DNA from: Cladochytrium replicatum
Lineage: Eukaryota > Chytridiomycota > Chytridiomycetes > Cladochytriales > Cladochytriaceae
NCBI GenBank assembly: GCA_025526935.1
Contig: JAHLKD010000012.1
Coordinates: forward strand, 645,120 to 709,119
Direction: 5' to 3'
DNA length: 64,000 bases
Below, one piece after another: positions 9,037-60,353 of the stretch. Numbering within the stretch: the first letter of the stretch is position 1; the number at the start of each line of letters is the position of its first letter. Both the position numbers and the translations under genes were made by a program. Below the pieces are notes generated by a model. That model saw nothing but the letters and a program-made list of their open reading frames with translations. It ran no database searches and was not told the DNA's origin.

Positions 9037-9593
9037 GCGACGTCAATTTCTGTTAACCTTCGACAATCGATTCAAGTTCTATGACTGCACAATCTTGACA
9101 GAAGCGTGCTTACACATTTTTCTATCATGGGTGATAGAATCCAACCCCATGCAATTCCTTCTATGAGCCATGCAACTATTCAAAATATCAATACATTTTC
9201 TCGACACCATCTCTTAGTTCACTCTGCTCAGTGCTGATCCGAAAGCATCAGTGTCTTTAGTTTTATAGTGCATGTAAATCAATGACTGTTCGCCAAAAAT
9301 AGGTCGTTGGGTTTGCTATTGCAGCAGCAAATGCGCGATGCTACAACTATGGGGCCAAGGCTGGTCAAACTTTTCTCAACTCTGTGTTTCAAAGGAAAAT
9401 CGCCATTCTGCTCCACGATGCAGGTTGCGGCCACGAATTGTAAGGTTTCGTTCATTTTGGATTTTGCACAATTTGAATGGGATCCATGCAACAAAAAATT
9501 TTAATCAACTTAATAATACACATATTTAGAGAAAACTTTGCAGCTGGCCACATAAGTACAAACCCCCCTGCCCACCAAAACTTTATTCCAAAG
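9037..9593. other. spacer between fungalysin paralogues 2 and 3
   Basis: About 560 bp without a convincing gene; it presumably carries the 3' end of paralogue 2 and the promoter of paralogue 3. The last 60 bp before the ATG are A/C-rich. Confidence 0.45.
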
Positions 9594-29556: not shown

Positions 29557-31478
29557 CTACATCTTTGCAAGGTCAGATCCTCCAGGACCTCTGAAGGTTT
29601 TGTGCACTGCGATCCAGTCCAGACCCATCAACACGAATACCGCAATAAGAACGACAGAGGTGTAGTTCATATTACTTGCAGTTGCAGGCAATGAGAAGGG
29701 CAGAATAAAAAAGATCAAATAAATGAGAGCGATGAGCACGGAAATCGCATGGGGAATCTTGGAAAGGATTGGACCCCAGTTGAGGTATCTGGATGGCAGC
29801 ATTTTATCCCGATCGCCCCCAAACAAAAAAATTGCAGATGGCATAGCAATCGAAAGCTGGCCAAGGAGTACTGAAGCTGCGACCAGGGCATTAAAAGCTG
29901 TGGTGGAGGCAACGTATAAACAAAGCAAGATGGCAATCCCAACGGCAACAACAATTTGGGCGTTCACCGGTGATTTCAGCTTCGGGTGGACCCATTCGAG
30001 AGATTTCGAGAAGGGGAGTCCTTGGTCGCGGGCGAGCGAGAAAACAAGGCGACCGATTGTTTGAATGATCGCAGGAAGCGCCTTGAAAATATGTTAGTTT
30101 CAGAATCTCGAAAGTCTTTTGTTGTGACTTACGAAAACTGGACCAAGAGAAAACAGCAGAGACATTACAAACACGCCGATCGGATTAACAATCGAGATGC
30201 GGAGAATTTCAAAGAACGGGAAGCCGGTCGGACCAGTCAGTATCGCGGTGACATCTCCCATGCAAAGACCCAGAACGACGATGAAGATGGACCCAGTGAT
30301 GAAGCCGATGACAACAGTGGCGATCATTGCTCGGGGAATATTTCGCTTTGGGTGCGGAACTTCCTCCGCAAGATGTGCTGCCGCGTCTATGTATGCCATC
30401 CCGTAGCAAGCATTGATGATCCCAGTAAGAAAGACAACGGCAGAGGAATCCCATCCCGTTTGGTTGATAAATTCTATGGAACACAAGTAAGCATTGCACA
30501 ATCCTGCGATCCGTAGTATCTCACCAGTGAAAACGAAAGCTGCGCTGTTCTTGATGCCTCCAACAGTAGGAATGATGATCAAGTATGCCAAAAATAGGAT
30601 GATTGAGAAATACACTTCAAAAGAACGTCAATATCCGAAGAAATTGAACCAAGAAGAAGAAACTCACATCCCAGCTTGTCAACCAAAGGCATGATCGAAA
30701 CGCCAAAGACGTTGGCCAGAGCACCATATACGTTGACAGCGTGGGCGACTCCGAAGATCAAGTACGAATTGTAGGGCGAAGTATCTTGAGAAAGAATCAC
30801 AAGGCCTTGAATGCCTTGCGCGATCAGCACACACACAGAAGCAGCCAAGGAGAACCATGATCCGATCGAGAGCCACGCACAAATGAAGCTCAAGCTGCGG
30901 CGAACGTGTGGTGGTGCAAGGAGGTAAACCCAGTGATACTGGCCACCTGCAGTTGGGTAGGAGTGTGCAAACTCTCCCATACTGAGAGCGGTGAAGATCT
31001 GTCCTATAGACACGAAGATGCTGAGAAAGGTGAATGCTTGATCGAAATAAATACAGAAAGTCCTTACAAGCCAAAGAATACGGTCGGGATTCCGCCCTTT
31101 GCAACAAGAAGAATGAGATTGACTGGGACAGACTCTGGCCATTATATCTTCACCTGCGGCAACCCGACAGCTAAGGATCCTCCAACACTCAACCATGAAC
31201 TGAAAAGCATGATTTCAGCCATATAGATTGCTATTCACAGCAGCACCAACTTTGTAATGATGAAGCCGAGGGCAAACATGGACCAAATGCTGAAGTTCCT
31301 GTTCAACTCTGTTCAAAAAGATTAATCCATACAGATGAATGCTAAAAATGTACAGCTAACCTTGGGTATAGCCGAGGGACTTGAGCTGCTCGGCATCTTC
31401 ATCCCCGCTCTCGATAATTCTCTCAACCTCACCCATGAGAGTTTGGTCGAGATCAGTAGAAGGAGAGGTTTTGGCCAT
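29557..31478 (-). CDS. Amino-acid/GABA/choline-type permease (APC superfamily)
   Basis: Starting at ATG 31478, short introns restore one frame to the stop at 29557. The N-terminal cytosolic segment leads to ELNRNFSIWSMFALGFIITNSW, where an intron removes an apparent stop, then GGSLAVGLPQGGIPTVFFGL, AHSYPTAGGQYHWVYLLAP, and the signature YIDAAAHLAEEVPHPKRNIP. This matches the fungal choline/GABA permease group (TC 2.A.3.4: Hnm1, Uga4). About 12 hydrophobic segments are visible. It lies about 380 bp from the divergently transcribed copper amine oxidase, and a shared promoter would allow co-regulation of amine uptake and oxidation (inference). Substrate is not determined by sequence. Confidence 0.85.
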
Positions 31479-31856
31479 GATTCTATCTCAGACGTAGAAC
31501 GGGCGAATGAACTTGTCCCAACTTTCAGAATTTTTCTGATTTATAAATTGTGGTATAGTGAAGACCGATAGCGAGAACTCCCGGATGAAAGAGCATCTCG
31601 GTGATAGGAGAGGCACCGAACCGACTGATGTCGCCAATATTGCTGATGTGATAGCGAGAACTTTCTTCAGATGTATTAATGCCACTTTTGATAGGAAGCA
31701 AGATAACGTCTGAAACGTGGAAAATTTTCCCAAAAATTAGCCTATCGAACGAAGATCAACTGCTGCCACAAGATGTACCGAGTGACTGGCACATACAAAA
31801 TGCAAGGAGTCCACTCTTTATGAGCACATATCATCATCTGTACTGAGCACATTATC
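31479..31856. promoter_or_regulatory. divergent promoter between permease and copper amine oxidase
   Basis: A 378-bp non-coding gap between two divergently transcribed genes with related metabolic roles. No specific operator was recognised. Confidence 0.45.
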
Positions 31857-34325
31857 ATGGCCCCCTCTCTGCACCCTCTCGAACTTATTACTGAAGACGA
31901 AATCATTCGGGCTGTGGCGATTCTGAAGGAGGAGAAGAACAGTTTCAACTACGCAAATGTCACATTCAGTGAAATCGGTCTACAGGAGCCCCCGAAGAAG
32001 GACGTTCTTGCATTCACCGGCGAATTCCCACTTGCGAGATGTGTCAGATTCATAATGATCGACAACGACAACATGAAAGTCTACAAAGCGATTGTCTCCC
32101 TGAAAGGATCCAAAGTCATCAGTTGGGATTACCTTCCGAACGTTCAGCCGCTCATTCACTTCGACGAGTTCAAAGCTCTTGAAGAGAGCGTCAAGAAGCA
32201 TCCCGACTTTATCGAAGCTATGACGAAGCGCGGCATCGAGGATCTTTCTCTTGTGGTGAGCTGCTCAAAAATGCTTCGGTGCTTCTTTCTTAAAGGTCAA
32301 TTTCCATCTCTCCAGTGCATTGAACCCTGGTCAGCAGGATATTACGGTGATGTGGACGAGGAAGGGAAAAGACTCTGCCGTGGCCTTGTATGTGCGCGCA
32401 AATTTCCCGACGACAATTTGTATGCCCACCCGGTCGAAAATGTCCAAGTGATCTTCGACATGGTGAGTATTCGATCCATACTAGCTTTCATTTCACTAAT
32501 GGTCGTTCGGTGCAGAACAAAAACGAAGTCTTCAAGATCAACGACTTCGGCGTGGTCGAGGTTCCACAAGAGTCCCACAACTTCGCCGCCGAGTTCATCA
32601 AGGAATACCGAAAAGATCTGAAGCCCCTGGAGATCACGCAACCGGAGGGACCGAGCTTTTCGGTGACCGGAAATCTTGTCGAATGGCAGAAGTGGAGCTT
32701 TCGTGTCGGCTTCAACGCTCGGGAGGGTCTTGTTTTCCATCAGGTTCTTCAGTATTATTTCATTACATACTTTTTGTCTCATTCCTTCCTTCGCCGTCAG
32801 ATTGGGTACAAGGACGACAAAGATCCCAGTAGAATTCGCTCTATTCTATACCGGATGTCGATTGCGGAAATGGTCGTGCCTTATGGGGACCCTCACCCAA
32901 TCCACTCGAAGAAAAACGCATTCGATTTTGGAGAATATGCTGCTGGAGCTTTCGCCAATTCCCTAGTGTACGCTAATTGCACAACAACGGGATCAAAGCT
33001 TATTTTCTTCGCCCTCTTTAGCTTAGGTTGCGATTGCAAAGGATACATACACTACTTTGATGCCGTGTGCGCCGATTCCAAAGGTGTTCCATTTACCATC
33101 AAGAACGCTGTCTGCATGCACGAAGAGGATTACGGCATTCTTTGGAAGCACACAGACTTTCGTACGCAAAAATGTGACAGCCGTCGATCGCGCCGGCTGG
33201 TCGTGAGCTTCATCGCAACAGTGGGCAACGTAAGCTCAATTTGTAGACATTTCGATCGTATATTCACATTATATTGTAGTACGACTACGGCTTCTTCTGG
33301 TACTTTTACCAAGACGGCACAATTCAGCTCGAGGTGAAGCTCACCGGCATCGTGAGCACCGCGCCGTCTGGAGCGGAGACACCGGAGTATGGTAGCCTCA
33401 TTGCTCCAGGTCTTTCGGGCATCATTCATCAACACTTTTTTATTGCACGACTTGACTTTGACATCGATGGGACAACAAACAAGGTCGGTGAAACATATGT
33501 AGACTTTCTCAAGGCTGTTCTAAAGTTTTTCCATAGGTGTTCGAGGTCAACTCCAGCAGTGATAGCGCGGTCAAGCCGTTTGGCACGCCCGGAAACCTGG
33601 TCGGAAATGCGTTCAAGGCAACGGCGACACTTTTGAAAAACGAAACTGACGCTCAACGAACCTGCGACATATACAAAGCCCGGTACTGGAAAGTCGTATC
33701 TTCCGAGAGGAAAAACTTTGTCGGCGAACCTACTGGCTTTAAGATCGCACCCGGGGAGAACGTCCTACCAATGTGGGACCCGGAAGCGCCAGTAGCGAAA
33801 CGAGCTCAATTTGCCACGAAACACTTGTGGGTCACCAAATACGAGGAAGATGAGCTTTATGGTGCGGGGGATTTTCCGGTGAGTGTTGGAGCTTTTGAGC
33901 TGCTGTTTGGAGACAGCTGGTTCATTTTGCTTATCTGACTTGTTAATTACTTCACAGAATCAATCGAAGCAAGACACTGGTGTCGCAGAGTATGCTAAGA
34001 AGGCGCGCAATCTTGAAGACGAGGACGTTGTTGTGTGGTACAACTTCGGGTTAGTGTACAAGGAATGATCATATACGGTGTACTGATGATCGTACGTTTC
34101 AGACATCACCACGTTGTTCGTCCCGAGGACTTTCCGGTCATGCCCGTCGGGTACATTGGTTTCGTTATGAAGCCCGTCGGATTCTTTGACGGAAACCCGG
34201 CTCTGGACGTCCCGCAGGAAAATTTAGGAAAGTCAAAGTGCACAAAAAGAGATGACAATGGGATTGCGAATGGCAAGGAAAATGGGAGCGCAAACGGGAC
34301 CACAAATTGTCCAGGTTGCTGCTAG
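31857..34325 (+). CDS. Copper amine oxidase
   Basis: Nine exons (31857-32255, 32316-32462, 32516-32743, 32801-32967, 33022-33229, 33280-33483, 33537-33878, 33958-34049, 34103-34325) give 669 aa. The enzyme oxidises primary amines to aldehyde, H2O2 and ammonia using copper and a self-made topaquinone (TPQ). The TPQ tyrosine is Tyr384 in NYDYG; the exon junction falls exactly between Asn383 and Tyr384. Copper ligands are the HxH pair His433/His435 (GIIHQHF) and a His in [14 protein letters not shown] (597-599). The N-terminal domains match the family ([11 protein letters not shown]). There is no signal peptide; the end (NCPGCC) is not a clear peroxisomal signal, so the enzyme may be cytosolic. 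Length is typical of fungal intracellular enzymes (650-700). Confidence 0.95.
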
Positions 34326-34666: not shown

Positions 34667-37600
34667 TCACATTGCGGTCGGCCTCTGCCTTTGTACATTG
34701 CGATGAATAATTGTCACTCGAGAACCGACAGACTCCCGCTCCCATATTTCGTCAGTTCCCACGCCACGATCTCCGACTGATGTGGAAGATCGAGGAAGCG
34801 AATTGTATGCCTTGGGCAAACCTGTATTCATGCTAGGCATCTCGCGAGCCCCGCTAACACTACCTCCATTTAAACTTTGATTTGAGTTTTGAGACCGAAC
34901 CGACTGCGAGTCAGCCTCGTGAAATCCGAAAGAATCACCGCGGATCGAATCCCGCACGATTGTACCATAAACGGTCCCTTGCTGAATCGGTCGACGGAAA
35001 ACCAAATTTCGAGTTGCCTCCTGGGAGGGAATATTGCCAGATTGTGCACGAAGTATCCCGCGAGGAGCAGGAGGCTGGAGAGCCGATTGAACCGTTGGAG
35101 GTTGGGGGCCAGGTGGGGCGACGGATCGGGTTAACAGGTTGGGGAACGACACAGCAGGCTGCTGGTACTGCTGGCCGTATTGCGCTTGCTGGGCTTGAAT
35201 AGGGACCCGCGAAATTCGCCTCAGTGCCTTCAAGTTGTTTCCCAGCCAGCCTTCGACATGGTTCATCATCTGCCTTTGTTGAGACTCCTCCCACACCGTA
35301 AACGCACTTATGTCGTCGCTCTTTAGTGCAGTTGATGCCACGTTCGATTGTTGCTGGGCAACTTTCGATGGGTCCGGGGCGTGCATTCGCGGATCTGATC
35401 GGACTGACAGGCCTTCAGGGTACTCTTTAGGAACAATACTCTTCATCTTCTCCAGATCCTTCATGGACTGATAAAGAACTTGATCAAAGCGAACAGATTG
35501 TCGCTGTATGCTGCGCAGGCTACTCACAACACTGGACGATGCCTCTTTAAGCGGTGCTTTGCGTACACCGCCCTCCAGAGCATTTTTCCCATTCGCAGCT
35601 CGATCCATATACAACATGAATGTTCCGTCGAGAACAACTCGTCTCAACAAACGCCATCTCCCCCTGGCGGGATTGCGTTCGATTTCAGGGCGGAAAGCTG
35701 TGAGCCTCGAGGATTCAGAAAAGAAAAGCTGGAGTGCGTTCATAGCTCCTTCGAGCCGCTCAAACAAGCTTCGCAACAAGTTCACGGCGGAATTGTGAAC
35801 CCCCATGCCAACGCTCTCAATCGGCGCACGGGATGCAGCAACGCCTTTTACATGCTCTCCAAACGCGAAGAGATCCTCGATACCTGCGCAGATTTGAGCC
35901 CTGATCGCTTTGAGCAGCTGCATGTCAAGAAGGGTACCCTTCTCGACATACTCAAACACACCCCGTTCGAACAACTGGACAGAGTGGTCCATGTTGGTGT
36001 CAGAGACGAGTTCACCGAGCCTTGCGATCTCCTTACGTGTTCGTGCGGCAGCTGCAGATGACAGGGCTTTGTTAGCCATCCCAACGATATCCGGAATAAG
36101 TGCATCTGTGCCTTGGTCGTCCATTGTAACAAAGCAGAAAGATAGTTTTAAATGAAGATCGTTGAGACGAGTTCCCAGCAAGCTCGGGAACCCGCGAGTA
36201 AGCATTCGGCTCTGTAGTTGATAGAATTTGCGAATACCCGCGACGTTGACCATCCCCGCACCATCTGATTTCCAGAATCGGGAGTTTTTGTCCAAAAGCG
36301 CGTTAAGCTCAAACGATAGAGTCGTGATAGTTTCAACTATGTTGCGTAGGAAGTCTGACCACGCCTCATACACGTCGCACATAGATCGGGGCACAGCTCC
36401 GCCATGATGGTCTCTTTTAAAGACTCCGGGGGTGCAAGCAAGTCGTCCGACGCGATATTTGGCAAGAAGGCTCATGATCTCGGGGTTACTTGTGTGAGCT
36501 ACAGCGTCGAAGGTCAAGGATGCATCTATGCCTGCGGATGCTTGGACAATCAATGAGCCTCCAGGATGGATCGGCAAGAAGTCAGTGACGTCGTAGCTTA
36601 AGAGATAGCTGTTAAAGATCGCGTACACCTACCAACATTGATCCTTTAACTTACCACCAGCCGTGGACTCCAATCCAAGTCATAACACCTTCGGCATCGC
36701 CAGTGTGAAGTGCAAGTGTCGAGGGGAGGATGATGGGAGCATTGCTTGGTGGAGGAGAGGGAGTCATGAAGATATCGATCTGGAATCGACGCTCGGCCAC
36801 CGCCATCGCGATAATTTCATCCGCGGATTCAGTCAAGTAGGTTGCGCGGTGGGCGAGAGCTTGCCGAAGTCCGCGCATTACTGACTCATAGAGCGGAACC
36901 GATCCGCACACATACAGGAAGGCACCGCTGCCACCAAGGCGAACAGGCATAATCGCCGCGCAGATGGAAGCTGCTTCCTGCTCAATAACCTCGTCAATAT
37001 ACTGTGGTTCTTTCTCGACTTCCACAATGCGACGCTGCTTTCTGTCGAATCTAAGGCCAATCTTGTCTCGAGAGAAGGCGGTGAATAGTTCGAGTTGACC
37101 ATTCTTAACATAATCGAACAGCTCAGACCCGTATAAAAGCTTCTGACGAGTTTGTACGCCGAAGAACAAAAGGTTACGTCCAGTCGCCCCAGAGTGGACA
37201 CGCTCTTGAAGGAATCCACGGAAAGGAGCGATCCCTGATCCACCTGCAAACATCACTATCGTGGCGGCCGGCGATGTTGGCAATGAAAAATGAAGCGGTC
37301 GAGATACACCAATGAATACCTAGCGAGAAGTATTTGTAATTTGAATTAATTCCAAAATCAGTTGCCCATCTGACCTCTTCGGCATCATCAGCAATCACCA
37401 TCGGATTGCCTTCCAATCCTTCAAGCGTAGGGTGAGGGTTCAAAAAACCACTGGATACTCCCCAGCGAGTGTTCAAAAGCCCGATGTTTTCGCCATTGAA
37501 TGCCAGCGAACGGACAAGCGGGTGATTGACACGCGAAACTGTCAAATCAATATAGCTAGGCAAAGCATCATCCATTCCCGAGCAGGATATACTGTACATT

Positions 37601-40451
37601 CGGGGAACTTCAGGCGGGACAATGTCCAGCAACCATCGCAATCCAGTTCCAGCGAAGGTGGTCGGAAAAGTGTTCGCAACTACGGTGGGGGTGAGCTCCT
37701 CGCTTATCGAAGCAAACAAGTCCCCGAGGTGGGCATCAATTTCTTCTGCCCCGGATTTGAGAAGGTATGTTACGTATGCAGACTTCCCATTTAGACGAGC
37801 GTTCACCTTGTGGAACAGAAACGCATAAGAATCATCGAAATGCTGACATATTTCCGTATCTCACCGCCTCTATAACGGGTCGAGAGAGCGGTTGCAGCCG
37901 CCCTCGGCGCAGGATCTCCCGGATTGTGAGCCGGGCTCGACTTGGATCTCGAGTAATCTCTCCCACGTATGCACCAAACCGTTTCCAAACCGATCCATAC
38001 TTCGACATCGACTCCTTGTCGAATTCGAGAGGCACAAATGCATCAAGTGCGTCATACAGCCCAGGGATTGCTTCGATTAGGGTCTCGATCGTTGACCACT
38101 GGTTAAGTGGCATGATAGAAAGTCGGTCTCCAGGGGCAAAGGTTATACCTGTGTCCCGAACATCAATCGAGATCATCCGTGTCGTTAGTTCAGGATCTTC
38201 GTCGATTCGGGTGCGCATAGCTATTCTACCGATGAACCGGCACTCTTCGAAAGAGCCGCGCATTTCATGAGGCTGCACGAGACCAGCTGCTCCAACAGTG
38301 GATGGTGAAACCACTCCCTGGTGTCGTTGCTTTGTGCGATTTTTCGTTGTTACAGCAACGTTCAAACGCGGACGGTATGGTTCAAGTCGTTCCACCAGGG
38401 AGTCAGAAAGAGTCTTATGCACTTCTTCCCATGGACGTCCAGTACTGTCCGACGCTCCTGCATTTCCATTGGTTTCGAGACGACCGCTTTGGAGAATACG
38501 CCAATTAGCTGCGGAAGGAAAAATGTACAGTACACCAGTTACGTCTTTGCCACTACTTCGATAAATCCATAAACTTTGTCTGTACAATAAAACCTCAGCA
38601 CGATTGAAACAACAGCATTAGACAGGTGTACATACATCGGTGGGTTCCCATGAAACCCCGTTCTCCGGCATAGCTTTCAACAATGCCTTCCAGAACCCCC
38701 AGTAGCGTAGGATCGCCTGTCTTCCGAACGTACTCAGGAACAGAGTAGTATGTCTCAATCGCGGCAATGAACGCTCGAACGTTCAGGGGAAGCCAAGCTC
38801 GTAGGTGCATGGCTTCTCGGCCTAGGAACGACAAATATTTTGTGCGCCCAAGGAAGGCATCCATAGTCTACGCATGTTCTATGTTTTCAGTCGAACAGAT
38901 CAAGAAGCATAGCTCACCAGAAAAAGCGGAAGTGCGAGGCCGGAGAGAGCAGGTACTCGAGAAGATAGTGGAGCTGAGAATCGAGCATATCGCTGTCCCC
39001 ACACTACAGGATCTGCAAATTGGTTTCCTGCATTTGGATTCACAGAAATCTTCAACGGGGAGATTTCTAAACTTGTGCACATTGCAAGAAGGTACATATA
39101 ATACCTTATGGAAAACTGGTGACAGCATGTCTATGAGCTGCTTGAGTTTAACAAGCTCAGCAAGAAGTCCACTGTTGTTGCGGTTCATAACATGCTCTTG
39201 GCATCTTGATACAAGAATACGGTGAGCAAATTTTACAGTATACACAATGTTCTTTACCTAGTAACGATCTCTACTCCGGGTATAAAAACACCGTGGACTT
39301 CGCACATAGCCATCAAGAAGAGACGCTCAGCATCGTCGTGGAAAGCACTCCACCTTACAACCATATTTTCTGAACGCTCGGGATACGGATCAATAGCGGT
39401 ATCGTCCTTAAGTTTGTAATTGAACATGGACATGTCAAATTGTGTGAGATGCGGGAGAGGTCGACCAAGTCGCAAACAGATCTGCCTGAAGGGAATCGCG
39501 ATATCTGGAATTGGGTCAATACCGCATCTGGATATCAAGCTCAAACAGTGATTAAGCCTACTCTTTGGTATTCCCTTTGTTTCCGGCTCTTCATCGGTGA
39601 GGTCAAAGGCGGAGGGATCAAGACTTCCCGATGTGTTTTGCGTGTTCAAAGTAATGCCGTCTCTACCATCATAACGCTCTTCGTAGCGCCAAATGCTCAA
39701 TAAAGAGAAATTTCAGTTTAGTAATGATGCGGGGTCTTTCCGTACCTGCAGAGAATTCCTAGGCACACAACGGCTCCCCAGAGTGCATCGTCAGGTATCA
39801 CATCCTTCGTGCCGATAACCAGAGGAATCTCGAGAATGGCGGGCCTAACTTGACCTCTGGCAACTATTCCAGGAAGTCGTGAGCAGATATCAGACCATAT
39901 GCGTCCCGGGCACATCAGTAGCGCAGTTGCAGCCCCAGACGCGGTCATTGGAAGAAAGCCTCGTTTCGACGAAAGGAACCCGTCCTATGTTACATCAAAT
40001 TATGTGAGAACGAGAGAAGTTCATTCCTCAGAAGGTCTCAAACCTTCCATCCGGTTTTTGGACCAATCGCTTCAGCCCGTTCTAGAACTCTACGAGCCGG
40101 CGCACCGAGCGCAACTGATAGGATGTCAACATCGTCAGGCATCAGGTGATCCGCGTTCACTGATTTGTCGGTGAGTGCATCAAGTGGTGGAGTCTGACCA
40201 AGCAATTGCTGAGTCAAAGCACAGATCTCATCAGCCTCAAGCTGTTTCTGCGATTTCCCAGAATCAAAAGCGGTTCGATGTTCAGCGAAGACGCCAGCAA
40301 AAGAAGAGAAGGCACAGCCGCGTAAAGCATATGATCCCGAAGGGTTGTGTGCTGGGCAGCTTGTTTGGTGAGCCCCCTTTCCGCCATGGCTGAACGAAGC
40401 TGTCACAGGCGAGGTGCTATGCGGATGGCTGAAGGAAGAGAGGTTGTCCAT
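34667..40451 (-). CDS. Giant redox fusion: IDO-like haem domain + P450-reductase-like FAD/NADPH module + cytochrome b5 + novel C-terminal domain
   Basis: One gene on the minus strand with many short introns from ATG 40451 to the stop at 34667, roughly 1,700 aa. (1) 40451 to about 38560: indoleamine-2,3-dioxygenase-like all-helical haem fold, recognised by PFRQICLRLGRPLP, the ALSGLALPLFL segment and the end R-AWLPLNVRAFI...GERGFMGTHRYKVYGF, where His (codon about 38640) is the expected proximal haem ligand. (2) About 38560-36660: P450-reductase-type FAD domain with GDRLSIMPLNQ and RMYSIS, then an NADPH domain with GGSGIAPFRGF and LLFFGVQTRQ. (3) About 36620-36430: cytochrome b5 with SYDVTDFLPIHPGG and a second His in AVAHTSNPE. 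(4) To the end: about 580 aa, partly helical with a disordered tail, no known domain. An intron at 36650-36605 removes an apparent stop between (2) and (3). Electrons could pass NADPH-FAD-b5-haem (inference). No FMN domain is present. Confidence 0.85.
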
Positions 40452-45069: not shown

Positions 45070-45366
45070 CATAGTGGCTCAGTCGGTACGAATGCGACTT
45101 TTCGAAGCTAAACTCCGCGGTTCGAATCCTATAGGGGACTGGATTCGAATTTCCTACGAAATATATCTCTCGCAATATCGTGTCACGTGCAAGTACCGCG
45201 CCACACCTCCTTCGATTCGCCATTGCCTTCGCTCCTCTTTCCTACGGCTCGCACGGCTCCCCAAGTACTGAAGATTCCAAATCTTGGTTGAAGTACACGT
45301 GGGTGACATGTACTGATTAAGCATTGTCAATACATGTTATAACATTCAAAAAAAAAAAAAAAAAAA
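45070..45366 (+). mobile_element. tRNA-headed SINE
   Basis: Starts CATAGTGGCTCAGTCGG (A box TGGCTCAGTCGG) with a B box GGTTCGAATCC near 45118, then a body and a poly(A) of about 19 nt (45348-45366). The 3' body (TTTCCTACGGCTCGCACGGCTCCCCA... and AATACATRTTATRA...TTC) matches the 3' end of the LINE next to it. Empty site: copy 3 at 61120-61150 reads GATCAAAACTTTTAGG uninterrupted, so the SINE inserted after AAAACT (TSD AAAACT, 45064-45069 and 45363-45368). Confidence 0.85.
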
Positions 45367-45413
45367 CTTTTAGGTTTCTTGCTTCTATTTCTCTCTCTCT
45401 CTCTCAAAAATCA

Positions 45414-46824
45414 ATGCCGCCTCCCAGCGCTCCGCATGCGCAGCCGCCTGATCCTGATGCGCCGCATGCCGCGCCGCCCGCCGCACCCCCCGCTGTGCCC
45501 CCTGATGGACTTTCTGGTGGCACCGTGATTTTTGAGGCCCGTTCGCGCCCCCGTGCCTCCTCTGTTGAAAATTCCGCTCCACAGCTTCCATTCTCCGCTC
45601 CTGCCTCTCCAATTCACTGGGCTGATGATGTGAATATGGGGGAGGATGAAATTGCCGGATCACGTGACTTCAGATCACGTGATCGACGCGCCAAAAGACC
45701 TGCTGAACATGAATTGCCCCGTCGCTCCCGTTCTCGTTCCCGATCACATCTGCCGGGTGTCCGGGTTCTTGCTGCTGTGGCTGCTCCATCGAGTGTTGCA
45801 TCTCTGGCCGATCTCCGTGTCATTCTCACTCAGATGCGATCTGTTTGTGCAACCTTTGATCCGTTGGCGATGCTGGATCCTATGCTTGCACATTTGCCGA
45901 GGGACACTCCTGCTGAATTTTTTAGTGTTTGTCGTGATATGGCCGAGGATCTGGTGGGTCGCTTTGGGAGGCCGCTGCCTTCGCCTTCACCTCCGGTTGC
46001 CCCTGTCTCCCGCCATGATGATGTGGCTGCGCCTGTGTGCCTTCCCCCTAGACAACTGCATGGTAATCCTTCAATTCAGGACGATCTTGGGAACTCTGGT
46101 GCTCCTGGCCCTCGCCCCCCGTCTAGTCGACCTGCCCCACGTGGACCTCGTGGTCCACGCACTTATGCCGCTGCTGCTGCCAATGCCCGTGCACGTGTGC
46201 TAGGGTTAGTTTGAGAGTCTCCCCACACTGAGTGCTGAATCTCGTACAGAAGCTGTCAGGACTGCCCTTGCTGGTCGTGACCCCACTTCGAATGTCAGCC
46301 TTCGTGGCCCTCGGCCTGTCGTATTCTATCCTCCGACCTCTCCGCTGCTGGTCTCCCCACCTGCTGATCTTCAGGCCCGTGTGGATGATTTGACCACTGT
46401 GTACATCAAGGACATCATGAGACAGCGGCTCGGCTTTGTGCGGACCATGCTGAGGGCTCTCTTGGGCGATGAGGTGGTGCGTGGTATCCGCCACATCAGT
46501 TTCGTTGGTCGCAACATTGCTTCCTTTATCTGTATTCGCTCAACTGCAATTGCTCTCCGTGCGCACTTCTCCACCCAGGAAGCTTCCACTGACGAATCAA
46601 ACCCTGACTTTCTTCGCCGAGCCTCTACTCTGCCTTTGGAGCAGCGGGAGGCTGCGGTCAGGGAAGTTGTTCACAAGAGATATGCACATATCCTCAGTTC
46701 AGTTACTGATCCTGCTATTTTCCTGTATGTCCGTGGTCAGCTCCCCATGGATGCTCAGGAAACTGTGCTGGACAGTGCCCGCGGGATTGCGCGTCAGCCT
46801 CGCTCAACCCATCTTCGTCAATGA
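45414..46824 (+). pseudogene. LINE ORF1 (putative RNA-binding protein), one frameshift
   Basis: ATG 45414 opens a Pro/Ala-rich N-terminus with Arg/Ser-rich and then helical segments, ending at TGA 46212. A +1 frame (from about 46210) continues with FESLPTLSAESRTEAV and a globular C-terminal part to TGA 46822-46824. A one-nucleotide shift joins them; a programmed event is less likely than mutation because no slippery site is seen. The ORF1 stop overlaps the ORF2 ATG (ATGA at 46821-46824). Confidence 0.7.
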
Positions 46825-49800
46825 TTAGTGTTCGAGTTGGTACCTTCAATTGTCGCAATTTGAGCTTTGGAGTTCTTGATTCACTGTTTCGCTTTATGCG
46901 CGCAAATCACATTGTTTTTCTGCTCCTGACTGAAACACACCTTTTTCCTTTAGACCCGCTGCCTTCTCCAGATTTGATTTTTGACACTCGTTTTTCTCCT
47001 GGGTCATCGGGTACACGACGGGCTGGTGTGGGAGTCTTGATCAATCGCAGTCTTTGTAGAGCTTCTGATTTCCGTCTCGTTTCTAGTTATGGTGGCACCT
47101 CTCTATGGTTTACATTTCGTGGGCTTTTGGTTGGAGGGTATTATTTGCCTCCGTGTGGTATTGCTCAGGACCCCTTCCTTGAAGAGTTTATTGCTTCACT
47201 TCCTCAACATGTCCCGTCGTCTCCGTGCCCTGTTCTTTTGTTGGGCGATTTCAATGCCCGTTTTTTAGCTACTGGTGATCATTCTTCAAATCGTAGGGGT
47301 AGGTTGTTTGAGCAATTTATTTCTGCCGCTAGTTTCTCTCTAGTTAAGCACCCTTCCTGTCATAACCCCACATTTTCTTCTCGCAATGGTGACTCCATTA
47401 TCGATTTGTTGTTTGTCAATCCTCTGCTTCAATGTGATCCTATTTCTTACATAGTTCATAGTCGTCTAGCCGATGGCGAGTTTATGCCTTGGGCTTCTGA
47501 CCATTTTCCGGTTACAGCTGTTTTTTCATTTGCTCCTCCCAATGCCAGCGCTCCCTCTGCTGCACCCCCCCACAAGTGCTGGGCTGCTCATCTGTTGCGT
47601 GAACCTGCTGTCTTTCAAGCAATGGAGGATGTGGGACATTTGTTTTTTGATCCCACCCTTGCTGATGTCAATGCTGCACTCAGTCCAATTTTAGAAGCTC
47701 CCGCCTTTGCCCAAATGTCTGTGGATGTTGCACAGGGATATATTGACTCTGCATTGGATATTATTTTGTCCTTTGTTACTTCCTGTGCTGCTTGTGTCAT
47801 TGGACCCCCCAGTTTAGTTCGCCGTCGCCCTGCCCTGCCATTGTTGCCGCCGCATTTAGTGGCCTTGCGACGGAGCTACTTACTTGCTCATAAGCACTAT
47901 TTAGCTGTTTCTTCCTGTGATGATCCATGATCCTGTTTTAGTTGAGTATTGCCGCTTGGAGCGTGACCGGCTATCGCGTGAGCGTGTCAAAGCTTTTCGT
48001 ACTTGGTCCCTCTCTCAGCGAGCTCGAGAGGCTTCTGGCGACAATATGTTTAGTTCTTCTCCTAGTTCTTTAACCGAGGTTAGCAAAGTTCTTTCCACCG
48101 CGCGTAGGTGTCATCAACGGCGCTCAGCTGCAAGTGGTTTATTGTCTGATCCTGCCTCTTTATCTCATTATCGCAATCACTTTGCCTCCGTTTATCAGAC
48201 TCAGTTTGCACAATCCTCTGCCAGTGCAGAACACGTTTGTCTACATGCGCTGAATGATTCTGTGTCAGTTAGTGTTAGTGACTTTGTTTGTGCTATTCGT
48301 TCTTCCCCAAACAACTCTGCTCCTGGCCCAAACCATATTCCAGCTGAGTTATTTAAGCCGTTAGCTTCTGATGTTGCTATCCTTTTTGTTCAACTTTCAA
48401 ACGCTATTTTCCGTTCAGGTTTGTCGCCCTCTGCATGGAATGCTGGCTTGTTGTTACCTGTTTGGAAGAATAAGGGCTCCATTGGTGATATTAGTCAGTA
48501 CCGCCCCATTACTCTAACCAATGTTGATAGAAAAATCTTTGAGCGTACCCTGCTTCCTATGCTTGTAGCTCATGTTGGTAAACTTGATCCCGCCCAAGCT
48601 GGTTTCCAGGCCAATCGTTCAGGTGTTGAGTGTGTTTTTGCATTAGATGCTACCCTTCGACGGGCTTCCCGCACTGCTCTGCCTTATTGTGTTACTTTCT
48701 TAGATATTAAAGCAGCGTATGATACTGTGCATAGGCCTCTTTTGTGGGAACGTCTTCGTCAATTTCCCAGAATTCCAAACCGTTTGATCTCTGTTTTGAT
48801 GAGTATGTTTGATCGTTGTTCTTCTCAGGTTGTTATAGAGAATCGTTCTTCTGATTTGTTTTCGCTTCCACGAGGTCTTTTTCAAGGTTCTGTTTTGTCT
48901 CCGTTCTTGTACTCAGTTTTCATCAATCCTTTAGCACAGCTCCTTCGTCGTGAATCTTCTCATCTTGCTAGGTTTTCTTATAACACTCCTGTTTTCAATT
49001 CGTTGTTTTTTGCTGATGACATAGCTTTGTTTTCTGCCACCCCTGAGCAGGCCCAACGTGCATTGAAAATTTGTGAAGATTTTGCTTTAGCTTCTCATTT
49101 TGTGTTTTCACCTTCAAAGTGTGCTGTGTTATCTTCTCAACGGTTACCCACCCCCTTGAAGCTTCATGGCTCTGCCCTCCCTGTAGAGGTTTCATTTAGA
49201 TACCTTGGTCACTATTTTACTATTGAAGGGTTTGATCTTGCTGCAACTATTGATCATCGCTTAGAGAAAGCTCGTGCCTCATTGTATCTTTTTGCACCTT
49301 ATGTCTCGTACTTTGGTGGGTCTGCTCCTCGTGTTGCCAGGTTGTTGTTTTTGTCTTTTATTAGACCTTCACTTGAGTTTGGTTTAGCACTTATTCGGCC
49401 TTCCACTGCTCAGCTTCAGGTACTCGAGCGTTTTTGTTATCATGCACTGTGTCGTCTGTTTTCACTAGCCCATACCACTTCGCGTGTTGGATTGTTGCTG
49501 TTAGCGCAAATTCCTACTTTTGAGTTCAGGCTGAAGTACCTTCAGGCACGTATGTTTGCTCGCTGGTCTAGTGATTCCAGCCCTCTGTTACCAGCTGCTG
49601 TGTTGCAATTCTATCAGTCATCTCCAGTAGGTTATGGTTCATCTCCTTATTTTTCCGCTTGTCACAATGATCTCATTGTTCCTATGCCTGTTGTGCCCCC
49701 ACTTCATCCGTTGATGTTGCATTTTCAGTCTTTAGCTGTTGCACATAATGGACCAATTGCAGTTTCGTTTGCCCCTGTCCGCAATTTGAAACTTCGCCAC

Positions 49801-50142
49801 CCTTTGTTGCTACCCCCACACCAACATCTCCCAACAGTATGTCTTCGTTTGTTCCTGCTATATCGGCTTGGCCGCCTGTTTCCAAACCCCCGACCTTATT
49901 GTAGGAACTGTCATGATGCCCCTGAAGTGTTGCGTGCCCATGTCTCTGTGTGTCTACATTTGCATGCTAGTTTGTCTGCTAGTTTTGATTTAGGCCCGCC
50001 TGATGATCCCCGCCTACCTCTTGACATTGCAATTGATATGCTTTCACCACAGCCTTTTTATCCTTCCCCTGCTTTTCCCAGTGGGTTCTTGTTCTTCGTG
50101 CACTTAACCGCATTTGGTCAAACTGTCTTGGTTATGAGTTAG
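46821..50142 (+). pseudogene. LINE ORF2: AP-endonuclease and reverse transcriptase, broken by a 7-bp duplication
   Basis: The first part (46821-47930) is an exonuclease/endonuclease/phosphatase domain: RVGTFNCRN, LLTETH, LLGDFNARF and a final SDHFPV. The second (from about 47917) is a reverse transcriptase with YRPITLTN, LDIKAAYDTV, FQGSVLSP and the catalytic FADDIALFS. A C-terminal CRNCH...HVSVC cluster is a possible zinc knuckle. Between the two parts the heptamer ATGATCC is duplicated in tandem (about 47918-47931), causing a stop and a frame change. Without it both would be one ORF2. This copy cannot therefore make intact ORF2 protein. Confidence 0.9.
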
Positions 50143-52144: not shown

Positions 52145-55100
52145 TCAGATAAACTCAAAAAGAATGAAAACACCTGCACGCTCCTTGTACTCTGCAACAG
52201 TGTCAGCTGAATGTTCTTCCAGTTCGTCAGCAGGTTCCCAGGAGTCATCAGAGGGCGGATAGCCTAACCAACGCACACGAAACTGGAGTTTCCCGCGATG
52301 TTTCCGGTGAGCCACTATTCGTTCGACTTCATACCATTCACCATCTTCTTCGAGCTCCGGTTCTGGCCTATCTCGACCTTGCTGCCGGGGAGCAGGAGGT
52401 TCATGCTTCTTCAACATTGAAACATGAAACCAAGGATTGACACGAGAAAACTTTTTGGGAAGTGCAAGACGGTAGGTGTCATACTTGCCCACTTCCTCAA
52501 CGACAAATGGACCAACCCAAGATTCCGATAGTTTCCGTTGATAGAACTTCATATGCTTGGTGGTGAGCATAACATCGTCTCCAACTTTGAATATTGGAAT
52601 TGGCCTCTTAGTGTCCTGAGCTCTTTTATAATACTCCTGATATTCTGAATAAAGTGTAGTGCACTGGATTTGCAATTCCCTCAATCGATCGACTAGTCTT
52701 TCTGCATCAGCTGACCGTAGGGCACGATGTTCTGACGAATCGATAAGGGCTCCTGGACCAGTGGGATTATATCCCAAATCCTGTTCAAATCTGGTAACTC
52801 CCAAAGGTTCATTACTGGCTCGAACTTGTGAATTGATTGCGAACTCAACCATTGGAAGGTAACGCTCCCATGCTAACCCACAGTCATCCCCATCGTACAC
52901 TGCATCAGCTAATTTGGATAGAACTGCAACTGCCAATTTCACTGTGCTCTCTGCATATGGATTAGCCTGTGGATGATGAGCTGTACTAGAATGCTGCTCG
53001 ATTCCCAATCGCTTCAGGACTGTCTGCGTCATCCCACTAACAAAGGCAGATCCTCTATCTGATGTGAATCTCTCTGGTAAACCATGGAGTGGATAATATC
53101 TCTCGTATATCAAATTGCCAACTTCTTCGGATGTTGGGTTGATGTTACACTTGTAGAGATGACATCGTGAAGAGAAGCAGCAGACTACAACAAGAATGCC
53201 AATCAATGGATGACAACCACAGAATGGACCTGCATTGTCTAAAGATGAATGAGCCCAACGACCAGTTATGGCTGCAATATTCCGGAGGAAAGTTGAATGA
53301 GGGGGTGCTCGGGCATGATCTTGACACACCTGGCAACCTTTGACCCATCTCTTGATCTTATGCAGCATCTTTGGAAACCAGAAGACTGTAGCTAATGCAG
53401 CAAACATTTTTTCAGCAGAAAAATGACCACCTCTTTCATGTCTATCCTGGAGGATAGTTGCTTCGGCAACCTCAGTTGGTACAAATACCTTCCAACCTCC
53501 AGCATTATGATACAGAATATTATCTATAAATTCCCAAGAAGTGGCAAAGACTCGCTCTTGCTCACTGCACTGCTTCAAATCTCCATTATTTTTTTCTATA
53601 ATTGCTAGATAACGCTGTGCTGGTTCATATTGAGTTTTTTGCAGTTCATTCTGTAACAATTCTATCAGGGTATGGGGTCCTACAGTTCCCACACTCGTCT
53701 GATAAGTCTCCCGCTTGGAGTTTTGACTGCAATGCAGCATCCAACTAGATACAGCAATGGAACCATCCATTGCATACAAAGCTGAACGTGTTACTGACCA
53801 AGAGTCCTCAGTACGAGGCAACCGTGACAAAGCATCTGGAACAACATGCAGGTAGCCTGGCCTATGCACAATTACAGCGCGATCTGCGTATTCCATAAAT
53901 TTCAAACACATTCGTGCATATTTTCTGTTGGAACCTTGGTAATTCTTCAACCACAGCAAAGCTTCATGATCTACAACAATTGAGAAAGGGAAATCCCCAT
54001 ACAGGAAGCCGGCTCTTTCAGCACTTTCCAGTCCCGTAATTAATCCCCAAACTTCGAGCTCCGTAGCCCACAGCTTCATCTCTGTTGGACCACAGGCCTT
54101 GCTGTAAAAAGCAATTGGTTTTGTTGTCATGTCTGGTTGTGTTTGCATGATTGTTAAATTAGTTCCAACATAGGAGGTGTCAAAATGCAGTGACATTAGA
54201 TATTCATATGGAGGTAGCACTACAGCTATGACTCTATCACTGCACAGTTCTTGCTTTAACCTCTCAAAAGCACTGAGAAATTCCGCTGAGTGGTGTACTT
54301 CACACCTCTCCATGAATTTCTTCATGTTGCGGTCTTTCTCTCTCACCCTCAGGACATCGTTGTGCATCAGATCTTCAGGAACATTGACAGGCTGAATCCC
54401 CACATCAGCTTGTCTCCTTAGATCCTCTGCGATGCCATCTGAGACCCAGTGAGACACCTTCTTCTTTGGACGCTTTGCATGATAACGCTTGACAGCCTCA
54501 ATGATCATATCAGATAAAATTCGGTAGTCTGTCTGCAGGCCAGGAATTGATTCCCGATAAAAACTGGCTAGACCCCAAAACATCCAAAGTTCGGCAACTG
54601 TTTGTGGTGGCAATAAATTCTTGACCGATCTTAACTTGGTTGGGTCAGGCCTCCTGCCTTTCTGATCAAACACAAATCCAAGTGCATTGAGCATTACAAC
54701 CAAAAAGAAAGACTTTGCCATCTTCAAAGTCCATCCAAACTGAACAGTCCGTCGTAACCAATGGATAACTGCATCAACATGCTCGAATGCAGTTGTTTGT
54801 GACAGGTTCTGATCATCAGCATATTTCACCATTATCTTCCATACAAGTCCTTTGTATGAAAAATCTGAGCATTTTTCTAAGTGAGCTGGAGCATTCTTTG
54901 GACCCTGTGGCATATGTGATGGAGCAATCACTTGCCCTGATCCAGGCATTCGTATTGCTAATAAACGCTTTGCTCTTTCTGTGCACACAATTTGATGGAA
55001 AGCCTTATTTTGATCACCTCCTGATGCAACAGCAAATGAAGAATTTTGTAACCACCGTAATACCAAGTGCATTGGAGTGAAAGGGTACGGAGTCAACTTT

Positions 55101-57079
55101 GTGTGAGCATTCAATACTGTATAATCTCCGGTAATACGTGGTGTTCTCCCAGATTCTTCAGGGTAGAATACAACAACCACCTCGCTAACATACTCTGCAT
55201 CAGGTATCGGACCATATCGTTTGAGCCTGGCAAATGTATCAAACTCTTTCCTGGCAGCCTCCACTTGCTTTGGGCTGAATCTCCTGGGAGGGGGCTCTAC
55301 TGGTAATTTCCCTATCAATTCCACATCAAAAGGAAATTCCTTGAACTCTCCCAAGTCATTTCCAGGATAAGAGAAAGCCTTATGAAATTTGCATACAACC
55401 ATCAAAGTCAATTTGACCAACACTCTTGGCATGTCAAGATTGAATCTTCCATCAGAAAGCAACACTTTCAGGAATGCATTTGGAACTTCTGGTGGATTAA
55501 AAGGATCAATTCCTGCACGATCACAGAGAGTGCTAATCTGCTTCTGTGAGAGTGTTAACTTTGATTCCAAATGTGCTTGTCGAATCTCTGATTTTTCAAT
55601 TTCAGAGATGTTCTCAATGGTGAATATGGCCTGAAAGGATTTCAGTTCTATCGTTGAATACGATGACATTGAGACTATTAGTGTTTTCTTTGCCCCATTC
55701 TTCTCCCTGCCCCCGCGAAGAACCAAGTTCGGGGTCGACGAACATGGTACAATTGTCATAGGATCCCGAGGTGATTGCATAAATGATGGCTGAGGAAGAG
55801 GGCGGATGCAAATGACAAAACACATTGGACGGATTACATCCATACCAAGTAAGAGAAGGGGTCTAGAGTGCTGCACCATCACAAACCTGACAGCAATCCG
55901 CAATTCACGACCACCATACGCATAGAGCACAATATCTGACACTATCTCCTCAGTGGCAGTATTGGCACCTCCTATGCCCTCTAGTGGCTCGTGACACTCA
56001 CGTCGTGGAGCAGACAGTCCCAACTCATGATATAAATTGTACGACACAACGGAAATGGATGATCCAGTATCAACAATAATTGGATGCTCTTTGTGATCAA
56101 TAGTTCCCATGCACCAAAATGGCACTACTGGCTTAGGAGGTGAGGGGTTGACTGGGTGATCTCTATCTGTTTCCAACGCAGATGTCACTTCAGTGTTACA
56201 TTCCCCAACAACCTCATCCATCACATCTTTCCAAGGTGTGGTGATAGCCTCCATAAGCGTAGAAAACTTTTTGTGCAAACCATTTTGGGGAGTACGATCA
56301 ACGTTGTAGATTGGTGTTGCTGCCAAAAACTGCTGAATACTTGGGGTGACTAAAAGATTCAGCAGGCGTGATTCCAAATTTTCAAATGTAATCACTTGAT
56401 TTGAGAGATTCTGGAAGGATGTCAATTTCTTAATGTCTCCTGAAATCAAGAAAGCTCCAATCGGCCCCCAATTAGGTGGACCCCATTCATCAGGCAATGG
56501 CTTGTTCTGCTGATAAAAGTCTTTCCTCCGATTTCTGAATGGTACTTGAGCCGATCTTGGTAAAAATAGGTCTCGCTCTAAAGGCAATTGAACAGGTTGT
56601 GCTTGAAGCAAAGCTTTGATGATAGCAAATGATCGATCCCTTGTCCGATAAGGGCATACTAATAAAGCAGAGCTTAAGCGCTGATTTCTGACCTTTTTCA
56701 AGAAGCTCTCAAGCAGATGTGGAGGTGGGTTTGCGTAAAAAATCTCTTCAGTTGGCCAGGGAACACCCAAACTGGTAGGATCCGGCCCTAAACAACCTTC
56801 AACTGATAGATCTATTGGATCTTTGCTCCAAAACTGCTTTGCCAATCTTGAAGCTCCATCCCCAAAAACATCTACTGTTGGGGAGACGTTGAAATGTGTA
56901 CATAATGCTCGGTAATACCGTGGATTTAACTGAGCGCTCGGATGCTGATTCTTTCTAGCAGGGGGAGGGGCGTCCGCCAACGGCCTGCTGTGTGTTGTAG
57001 TGAATATGGGCTTTGAAAGAGAATCTTCTAACTCGACTAAGGCCACCCTATTGCCCTCAAGGGAGGCCCTCAGTAAAAA
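52145..57079 (-). CDS. Pol polyprotein: DAM-like domain, protease, RT, RNase H, integrase, chromodomain
   Basis: A single open frame of more than 1,630 aa. N-terminal part (to about residue 200, counting from GTG 57046) contains DVFGDGASRL and FYANPPPHLL, a motif pair like Dam-type N6-adenine methyltransferase relics known from DIRS-like elements. Then aspartic protease (VDTGSS, Asp about 326), reverse transcriptase (TGDYTVLN, GDQNKAFHQI, catalytic KYADDQN), RNase H (FDTSYVG, VDHEALLWL, PDALSRL), integrase (HHCC: HERGGHF...CQVCQ; catalytic LDNAGPF, SDRGSAF, NPYAEST) and a C-terminal chromodomain (FRVRWLGYPPSDDSWEP). The frame has no ATG near its start and begins in the -1 frame relative to gag within a 15-nt overlap, so expression as a Gag-Pol fusion by -1 frameshifting is likely. 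Confidence 0.95.
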   Translation of the reverse strand, partial: FLLRASLEGNRVALVELEDSLSKPIFTTTHSRPLADAPPPARKNQHPSAQLNPRYYRALCTHFNVSPTVDVFGDGASRLAKQFWSKDPIDLSVEGCLGPDPTSLGVPWPTEEIFYANPPPHLLESFLKKVRNQRLSSALLVCPYRTRDRSFAIIKALLQAQPVQLPLERDLFLPRSAQVPFRNRRKDFYQQNKPLPDEWGPPNWGPIGAFLISGDIKKLTSFQNLSNQVITFENLESRLLNLLVTPSIQQFLAATPIYNVDRTPQNGLHKKFSTLMEAITTPWKDVMDEVVGECNTEVTSALETDRDHPVNPSPPKPVVPFWCMGTIDHKEHPIIVDTGSSISVVSYNLYHELGLSAPRRECHEPLEGIGGANTATEEIVSDIVLYAYGGRELRIAVRFVMVQHSRPLLLLGMDVIRPMCFVICIRPLPQPSFMQSPRDPMTIVPCSSTPNLVLRGGREKNGAKKTLIVSMSSYSTIELKSFQAIFTIENISEIEKSEIRQAHLESKLTLSQKQISTLCDRAGIDPFNPPEVPNAFLKVLLSDGRFNLDMPRVLVKLTLMVVCKFHKAFSYPGNDLGEFKEFPFDVELIGKLPVEPPPRRFSPKQVEAARKEFDTFARLKRYGPIPDAEYVSEVVVVFYPEESGRTPRITGDYTVLNAHTKLTPYPFTPMHLVLRWLQNSSFAVASGGDQNKAFHQIVCTERAKRLLAIRMPGSGQVIAPSHMPQGPKNAPAHLEKCSDFSYKGLVWKIMVKYADDQNLSQTTAFEHVDAVIHWLRRTVQFGWTLKMAKSFFLVVMLNALGFVFDQKGRRPDPTKLRSVKNLLPPQTVAELWMFWGLASFYRESIPGLQTDYRILSDMIIEAVKRYHAKRPKKKVSHWVSDGIAEDLRRQADVGIQPVNVPEDLMHNDVLRVREKDRNMKKFMERCEVHHSAEFLSAFERLKQELCSDRVIAVVLPPYEYLMSLHFDTSYVGTNLTIMQTQPDMTTKPIAFYSKACGPTEMKLWATELEVWGLITGLESAERAGFLYGDFPFSIVVDHEALLWLKNYQGSNRKYARMCLKFMEYADRAVIVHRPGYLHVVPDALSRLPRTEDSWSVTRSALYAMDGSIAVSSWMLHCSQNSKRETYQTSVGTVGPHTLIELLQNELQKTQYEPAQRYLAIIEKNNGDLKQCSEQERVFATSWEFIDNILYHNAGGWKVFVPTEVAEATILQDRHERGGHFSAEKMFAALATVFWFPKMLHKIKRWVKGCQVCQDHARAPPHSTFLRNIAAITGRWAHSSLDNAGPFCGCHPLIGILVVVCCFSSRCHLYKCNINPTSEEVGNLIYERYYPLHGLPERFTSDRGSAFVSGMTQTVLKRLGIEQHSSTAHHPQANPYAESTVKLAVAVLSKLADAVYDGDDCGLAWERYLPMVEFAINSQVRASNEPLGVTRFEQDLGYNPTGPGALIDSSEHRALRSADAERLVDRLRELQIQCTTLYSEYQEYYKRAQDTKRPIPIFKVGDDVMLTTKHMKFYQRKLSESWVGPFVVEEVGKYDTYRLALPKKFSRVNPWFHVSMLKKHEPPAPRQQGRDRPEPELEEDGEWYEVERIVAHRKHRGKLQFRVRWLGYPPSDDSWEPADELEEHSADTVAEYKERAGVFILFEFI

Positions 57080-59310: not shown

Positions 59311-59458
59311 ATTGTGCTCAGAAAAATGCGTAAAATAATCGAAACTGATCGCCCGTAATTCTGAGTAATCAGGGAAGTGTTTGTGTAGCCGGTAATACGT
59401 TCCTGAGTAAACGCACAAAAAGGTCCAAAAATGGTGGGTCCTGGATGAAACCACCACC

Positions 59459-60353
59459 TGTTAAAAACCAAGGGCTTCTCCTGGCAGCGGTAGGGCGTGT
59501 TTAGCTGTACTTTAGCTAGCACAACAGCTCCAGGTTCCGTCTCTTGGCCCAGTTGAATATGGGGTAAATGATAAAGCAAATTCCCTTGTTGCACACAAGC
59601 ACTCTGTGGCTAATACAAATCAAGGCTGGGTGTTAAAAACCAAGGGCTTCTCCTGGCAGCGGTAGGGCGTGTTTAGCTGTACTTTAGCTAGCACAACAGC
59701 TCCAGGTTCCGTCTCTTGGCCCAGTTGAATATGGGGTGATGATAAAGCAAATTCCCTTGTTGCACACAAGCACTCTGTGGCTAATACAAATCAAGGCTGG
59801 GATTGCTAACCAGGAAGACTGTGGTGTGTGAGTGTTTGGTTTGTTCCACTGTCTCCTTTATTTATACCTGTGGTGTGTGAGTGTTTGGTTTGTTCCACTG
59901 TCTCAAGGAACCAGCCACCCTCACACCGCAATAAATATTCCCACACAGAAGAATATTCAACAATTACAATAAAGAAAATAAACAGCATGACTGCCCAAAA
60001 CATAAATCGAGCAATAGCATAAAAACTTCTCAAGCCCAAGAGAAAAGCCTATTGCACAAAACAATGGGTAAGCCCTCCAAGGGTACACAGAATTTAACAC
60101 TGGGATTGCTAACCAGGAAGACTGTGGTGTGTGAGTGTTTGGTTTGTTCCACTGTCTCAAGGAACCAGCCACCCTCACACCGCAATAAATATTCCCACAC
60201 AGAAGAATATTCAACAATTACAATAAAGAAAATAAACAGCATGACTGCCCAAAACATAAATCGAGCAATAGCATAAAAACTTCTCAAGCCCAAGAGAAAA
60301 GCCTATTGCACAAAACAATGGGTAAGCCCTCCAAGGGTACACAGAATTTAACA
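59459..60353 (-). repeat. 5' LTR of the Ty3/gypsy element, interrupted by a nested LTR
   Basis: Outer LTR segments 59459-59630 and 60105-60353 (to TTTAACA). It resembles the 3' LTR except for a missing 49-bp repeat unit. It is split after GGCTGGG by the nested LTR. Confidence 0.95.
59631..60099 (-). mobile_element. Nested solo LTR inside the 5' LTR
   Basis: A complete 469-bp LTR (TGTTAAAA...TTTAACA) with its own 5-bp TSD CTGGG (59626-59630 and 60100-60104). It differs from the 3' LTR by a one-base deletion (GGGGTGATG against GGGGTAAATG region). This is a second insertion of the same family with loss of its internal part by LTR recombination. Confidence 0.95.

Follow-up and report, generated by a model that had tools for sequence, protein, structure and literature searches.

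Gene structure and genomic context

The window analysed here, a stretch of 64,000 nucleotides from Cladochytrium replicatum, carries at 34667..40451 on the minus strand a gene of 13 exons that encodes 1698 amino acids in the spliced model. The exon model was set with the help of homologues and the deposited protein. It runs from the ATG at 40451 to the stop codon ending at 34667, with exons at 40451-40044, 39984-39746, 39695-39562, 39504-39258, 39204-39105, 39049-38918, 38867-38636, 38579-38543, 38486-38354, 38272-37865, 37806-37375, 37319-36655, and 36596-34667. All 12 introns are short (50-81 bases each) and bounded by GT..AG. The resulting coding sequence (CDS) comprises 1,699 codons including the stop and contains zero in-frame stops before its end, versus 68 and 85 stops in its two other frames and a mean of 73.7 over 200 base shuffles of the CDS. 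The deposited protein P0001 (BJ742DRAFT_880965) shares 97% identity with the preliminary gene model over 94% of the model, and the refined model is identical to it from residue 104 onward. The open CDS and the deposited protein thus agree with the original prediction that several minus-strand segments join through short introns into one gene.

P0001 starts at residue 104 of the refined model. The first 103 residues, which lie upstream within the same first exon and include RGCAFS, are absent from the deposited model. An RGC[APS]F motif was found in 68 of the 90 homologue rows having at least 70 amino acids before this point; the remaining 30 of the 120 rows are too short in the N-terminal stretch and were excluded from this count. 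Since the N-termini of the homologues share an RGC[AS]F-type motif, the start at 40451 is, on this sequence comparison, better than that of the database model, which upholds the gene bounds as first proposed. The assembly containing the window spans 50.5 Mb in 198 contigs. Searches of it with parts of the protein matched this locus only, so the fusion gene looks single-copy in this genome. The gene is adjoined by a copper amine oxidase gene (31.8-33.9 kb, plus strand) and an amino-acid permease gene (29.6-31.2 kb, minus strand).

Domain architecture and distribution in fungi

Pfam searches with the preliminary model gave matches above cut-off for IDO (31.7 bits, cut-off 26; 42.9 bits in P0001), NAD_binding_1 (42.2 bits, cut-off 22), and Cyt-b5 (41.0 bits, cut-off 23.7), and a match slightly under cut-off for FAD_binding_1 (29.1 bits, cut-off 32.3). 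When 30 family members were scanned at E<=0.01, IDO, Cyt-b5, and FAD_binding_1 were each matched in 30/30 and NAD_binding_1 in 29/30. At the same threshold, flavodoxin/FMN families were matched in 0/30, and no other family appeared beyond those four, in keeping with the FAD/NADPH module without an FMN domain that had been proposed. The predicted signature motifs GTHRYKVYGF, RMYSIS, GGSGIAPFRGF, and HPGG are all found in the model protein.

The homologue set comprises the best 120 of 274 proteins at E<=0.001, with P0001 from this locus included. All four domains are present in 115 of these 120, the exceptions being P0019, P0033, P0041, P0042, and P0071. The rows among the 120 that carry an organism name are all fungal and include two chytrids and many Basidiomycota and Ascomycota, the latter phyla assigned by genus; Podospora species are among the rows. 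The same fusion is present in chytrids, mushrooms, and moulds. In a tree of 35 rows chosen from the 120, nine basidiomycetes group together and a 12-row ascomycete subgroup sits on a long branch; the window's own row is long-branched and its placement unsure. Paraphoma appears in two rows among the 120, which suggests an old duplication. The simplest reading, short of proof, is that the fusion was present in an early fungus and was then inherited largely vertically, and the tree is compatible with this. Database names follow mostly the reductase half ('NADPH--hemoprotein reductase', 'putative sulfite reductase alpha subunit', 'related to nitric-oxide synthase'), and P0042, P0071, and P0181 are named plainly 'indoleamine 2,3-dioxygenase'.

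Conserved and altered residues

The first part of the protein (38357..40142, minus strand; residues 104-553, with eight introns within) had been attributed to the IDO superfamily, and both the Pfam match and a structural match to the two-domain IDO fold bear this out. Residue counts were made over 119 homologues (P0002-P0120), none dropped. The proximal haem His, H496 (38642-38640, minus strand), is kept in 118/119; its equivalence to IDO1 His346 follows from spacing and from the stretch that the structural match covers. By spacing against IDO1, the fusion has about three residues more before this His. Pocket positions were mapped by a sequence profile that ends right before the haem His, together with motif spacing, and are given in IDO1 numbering. 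In the profile alignment, the Phe163 position is F323 (kept in 116/119), the Ser263 position is S412 (119/119), and the Ser167 position is occupied by Met in 50, Cys in 50, and Val in 19 of the 119. Where the alignment is loose, Gly stands at the Phe226 position in 119/119, and the Arg231 position holds Pro (50), Asn (34), Ser (22), His (11), or Ala (2) and no Arg or Lys in the 119. With moderate certainty, the Trp-binding pair Arg231/Phe226 is thus probably not retained.

The active-site loop also appears altered. ETNG (residues 514-517; 38465..38476, minus strand), located by motif spacing only, would stand at the place of the GTGGS/T of IDO and TDO, and its TNG is found in 118/119 homologues, with one gap. 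The other IDO-type genes of this genome carry GTGGT (on C5 and C8) or ATGGS (in a near-identical pair on C13 and C36). Compared with IDO1 and IDO2 (PF01231; heme-dependent aromatic oxygenase superfamily), the fusion therefore has the same fold with a reductase and a cytochrome b5 added, and it appears to differ from IDO1 at the Phe226, Arg231, and Ser167 positions on the alignment and in the loop by motif spacing. The original prediction had suggested a possible indole or amine substrate on account of the neighbouring genes. The amine oxidase and the permease are present, but the neighbourhood was looked at in this genome only and the fusion spans fungal phyla, so we place little weight on this weak link. 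Because the residues that hold Trp in IDO1 appear not to be kept, an amino-acid indole cannot be assumed as the substrate.

The FAD/NADPH reductase module (36747..38272, minus strand; residues 555-1025) is of the CysJ/CPR type. Its motifs comprise RMYS (759-762), GGSGIAPFR (860-868), SRD (917-919), C972, D1016, and F1018. Arg759, Tyr761, and Ser762 are found in 118/119 homologues, Gly860-Gly863 in 118-119 of 119, and Ser917-Arg918-Asp919, Cys972, Asp1016, and Phe1018 in 119/119. The module thus has the FAD and NADPH domains of a diflavin reductase with their catalytic residues and lacks the FMN (flavodoxin) domain. Ser762, Cys972, Asp1016, and Phe1018 presumably correspond to the Ser-Cys-Asp set and the FAD-shielding aromatic of CPR/CysJ. 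Alignment with sulfite reductase reaches the chain end (788-1056 in preliminary-model numbering versus 144-374 of 374). Because these positions are kept and the alignment extends to the end of sulfite reductase, NADPH to FAD transfer should work. The predicted cytochrome b5 domain (36434..36689, minus strand; residues 1045-1110) begins past the point where the sulfite reductase chain ends. Its assignment is supported by the Pfam score, the HPGG motif, and both haem ligands, H1066 (117/119, two gaps) and H1090 (119/119).

The N-terminal tail (40143..40451, minus strand; residues 1-103) contains RGCAFS (44-49) and one Cys-Pro (C32-P33). Cys-Pro is a recognised haem regulatory motif. In the tail stretch, 90 of the 120 rows have 70 amino acids or more, and of these 84 carry at least one Cys-Pro and 79 carry at least two; across the full set of 120, the density is 1.69 per 100 residues in the tail versus 0.12 in the rest. 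The other chytrid (P0010) has none in its shorter tail. This Cys-Pro-rich family tail was absent from the original prediction, and as a putative haem regulatory motif we treat it as a lead only.

The last 580 residues had been described as matching nothing known. They indeed belong to no known family, but they fall into two parts, a conserved helical domain predicted to be folded (35579..36421, minus strand; residues 1115-1395) and a poorly conserved tail (34670..35578, minus strand; residues 1396-1698). The helical domain has a pLDDT above 85 in most blocks of 1121-1371 and below 75 beyond, and its conserved residues include an invariant Gln-Ser-Arg. It had zero Pfam matches even at E 10, and the searches found no short standalone relatives and no convincing relative among solved structures. 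The tail, modelled to 1530, is partly of low confidence with some helices, and in it R-[LI]-S is conserved as a short motif around 1516-1518.

Proposed mechanism and its alternatives

We favour, as evenly balanced between right and wrong, the reading that the fusion is a self-sufficient haem oxygenase with an IDO-fold core and NADPH as its electron source, which would monooxygenate a substrate that is not free L-Trp. As homology supports, NADPH would deliver a hydride to FAD in the CysJ/CPR-like module. Single electrons would then pass from FAD to the attached b5, which may replace the missing FMN domain, and from b5 to the His496-ligated haem, both haem sites being kept. An electron route from FAD through b5 to haem had been predicted; it is plausible, the checked cofactor residues being conserved, and the path itself is what we infer. 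The reduced IDO-fold haem would activate O2 and oxidise a small organic molecule, with two electrons per turnover. Monooxygenation is favoured because a reductase-haem fusion kept family-wide fits stoichiometric use of electrons and because residues linked to dioxygenation of Trp seem to have changed. Taken together, the fused reductase, the altered GTGGS/T loop, and the apparent loss of Trp-binding positions point to a monooxygenation whose substrate is not free L-Trp. More speculatively, a role in sensing haem or redox state is conceivable for the Cys-Pro tail, and one in positioning the enzyme for the helical domain.

Since even the onset of catalysis in IDO enzymes requires a reductant, the fused reductase is no proof of monooxygenation. 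The plain 'indoleamine 2,3-dioxygenase' names of some members and the lack of product from PrnB with any donor tried, b5 and CPR among them, also count against the favoured reading. The main rival is a self-priming dioxygenase, in which the IDO domain would cleave the indole ring of Trp or a derivative with O2 and the NADPH-FAD-b5 chain would merely keep the haem ferrous. The IDO fold and the conservation of F323 and S412 would suit it, and human IDO1 can be driven in vitro by CPR with or without b5, with an in vivo relevance called unclear in the excerpted text of PMC13142367, whose references on this theme include Maghzal 2008 and Vottero 2006. We nevertheless consider it unlikely, given the aligned Gly at the Phe226 position, the lack of Arg or Lys at the Arg231 position, Met, Cys, or Val at the Ser167 position, the ETNG loop, and the other IDO-type genes of the genome.

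A detoxifier resembling flavohaemoglobin, in which ferrous-O2 haem would react with NO or another small oxidant and be re-reduced at each turn, seems quite improbable. Flavohaemoglobin joins a haem domain to an FAD/NADPH module with no FMN in the same single-chain logic, and the wide occurrence in fungi, a tree that allows mostly vertical descent, and the lack of Arg or Lys at the Arg231 position would accord with this role. However, the haem domain has an IDO rather than a globin fold, its many invariant residues may indicate a specific substrate, and the extra b5 and helical domain would be left without explanation. We regard as very improbable a haem or redox sensor, whose IDO domain would bind haem without catalysis and whose Cys-Pro tail and helical domain would relay the signal. 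The enrichment of Cys-Pro in the tail and the absence of the helical domain from the short standalone proteins searched fit such a regulator, but the complete, nearly invariant NADPH-to-b5 chain would be costly for a sensor, and Cys-Pro is missing from the tail stretch shown for rows such as P0010, P0020, and P0050.

Relation to known systems and significance

The fusion shares with CysJ/CPR the FAD and NADPH domains, up to and including the C-terminal aromatic, with the motifs RxYS, GGSG, SRD, CGS, and D-x-F, and differs in having no FMN domain and a b5 placed where CysJ ends. P450 BM3/CYP102 and nitric oxide synthase likewise have a haem domain followed by an NADPH reductase in one chain, whereas the fusion has a His-ligated IDO fold for the haem domain and b5 for FMN. 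From flavohaemoglobin it is set apart by an IDO instead of a globin fold, a CysJ-type FAD domain, and the added b5. No NOS oxygenase or globin Pfam family was matched at E<=1; matches to nitric oxide synthase chains cover the reductase half, and the haem domain is IDO-fold. MarE and PrnB are natural-product tryptophan oxygenases of the same haem-dependent superfamily; unlike this fusion, neither has a fused reductase reported in the excerpts of PMC12312684 and PMC11791213. According to the former excerpt, the loop in MarE and TDO, and in MarE also the electron donor, steer mono- versus dioxygenation, with ascorbate as the donor in the MarE experiments. The latter describes PrnB as giving product with none of the donors tried, including b5 and CPR. 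Tentatively, and with rather more doubt than belief, the family may be a third, unstudied type of self-sufficient haem oxygenase next to NOS and the fusions of P450 with reductase: a His-ligated, IDO-fold monooxygenase, fed from NADPH via FAD and b5, retained from early in fungal evolution, and with a haem-sensing Cys-Pro tail.

The domains are already annotated automatically in databases, and the job of the fusion appears unstudied. Among the full-text literature matches listed, no title concerned an IDO-reductase-b5 fusion; a mention is possible in fungal-IDO work of 2012, which reportedly distinguished three fungal IDO types. The fungal IDO papers PMC5786828, PMC7448278, PMC11046786, and PMC4595289 treat ido as separate genes in the portions consulted. 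The proteins form a large family of conserved fungal enzymes whose database names derive mainly from the reductase half. The excerpted PMC13142367 calls the in vivo role of the known reduction systems for IDO1 unclear, and the fusion bears on this question of electron delivery. With an IDO-fold haem welded to its electron supply, one protein makes it possible to test directly how electrons are delivered and whether a His-ligated haem carries out mono- or dioxygenation.

N-terminus of the fusion protein

The database protein of the fusion locus (BJ742DRAFT_880965) lacks 103 N-terminal residues, encoded at window positions 40143-40451, the presence of which is supported by homologues. Both the Cys-Pro and the RGCAFS motifs lie within this omitted stretch.

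Another IDO-type gene

Elsewhere in the C. replicatum assembly (G000), another IDO-type gene is found on separate contigs as 2 near-identical copies, L007 (C13:44913) and L008 (C36:296825). Either the gene was duplicated recently or one copy is a duplicate introduced by the assembly.

Genes and putative retroelements in the window

The fusion gene is adjoined by neighbouring, divergent genes for an amino-acid permease and a copper amine oxidase (29557-33938). Three consecutive fungalysin-like genes form a tandem array at 3930-11751. The first contains a Pfam Peptidase_M36 match (5237-6115) and is the only one confirmed by Pfam, the second and third being assigned by eye from the likeness of their translations. 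Judged by eye only, open frames at 45321-50142, whose translations resemble endonuclease and reverse transcriptase, indicate a putative non-LTR retroelement. Long frames at 52145-59460, likewise judged solely by eye, suggest a putative Ty3/gypsy-type retroelement: they resemble a protease, a reverse transcriptase and an integrase, with a chromodomain-like region at the end.
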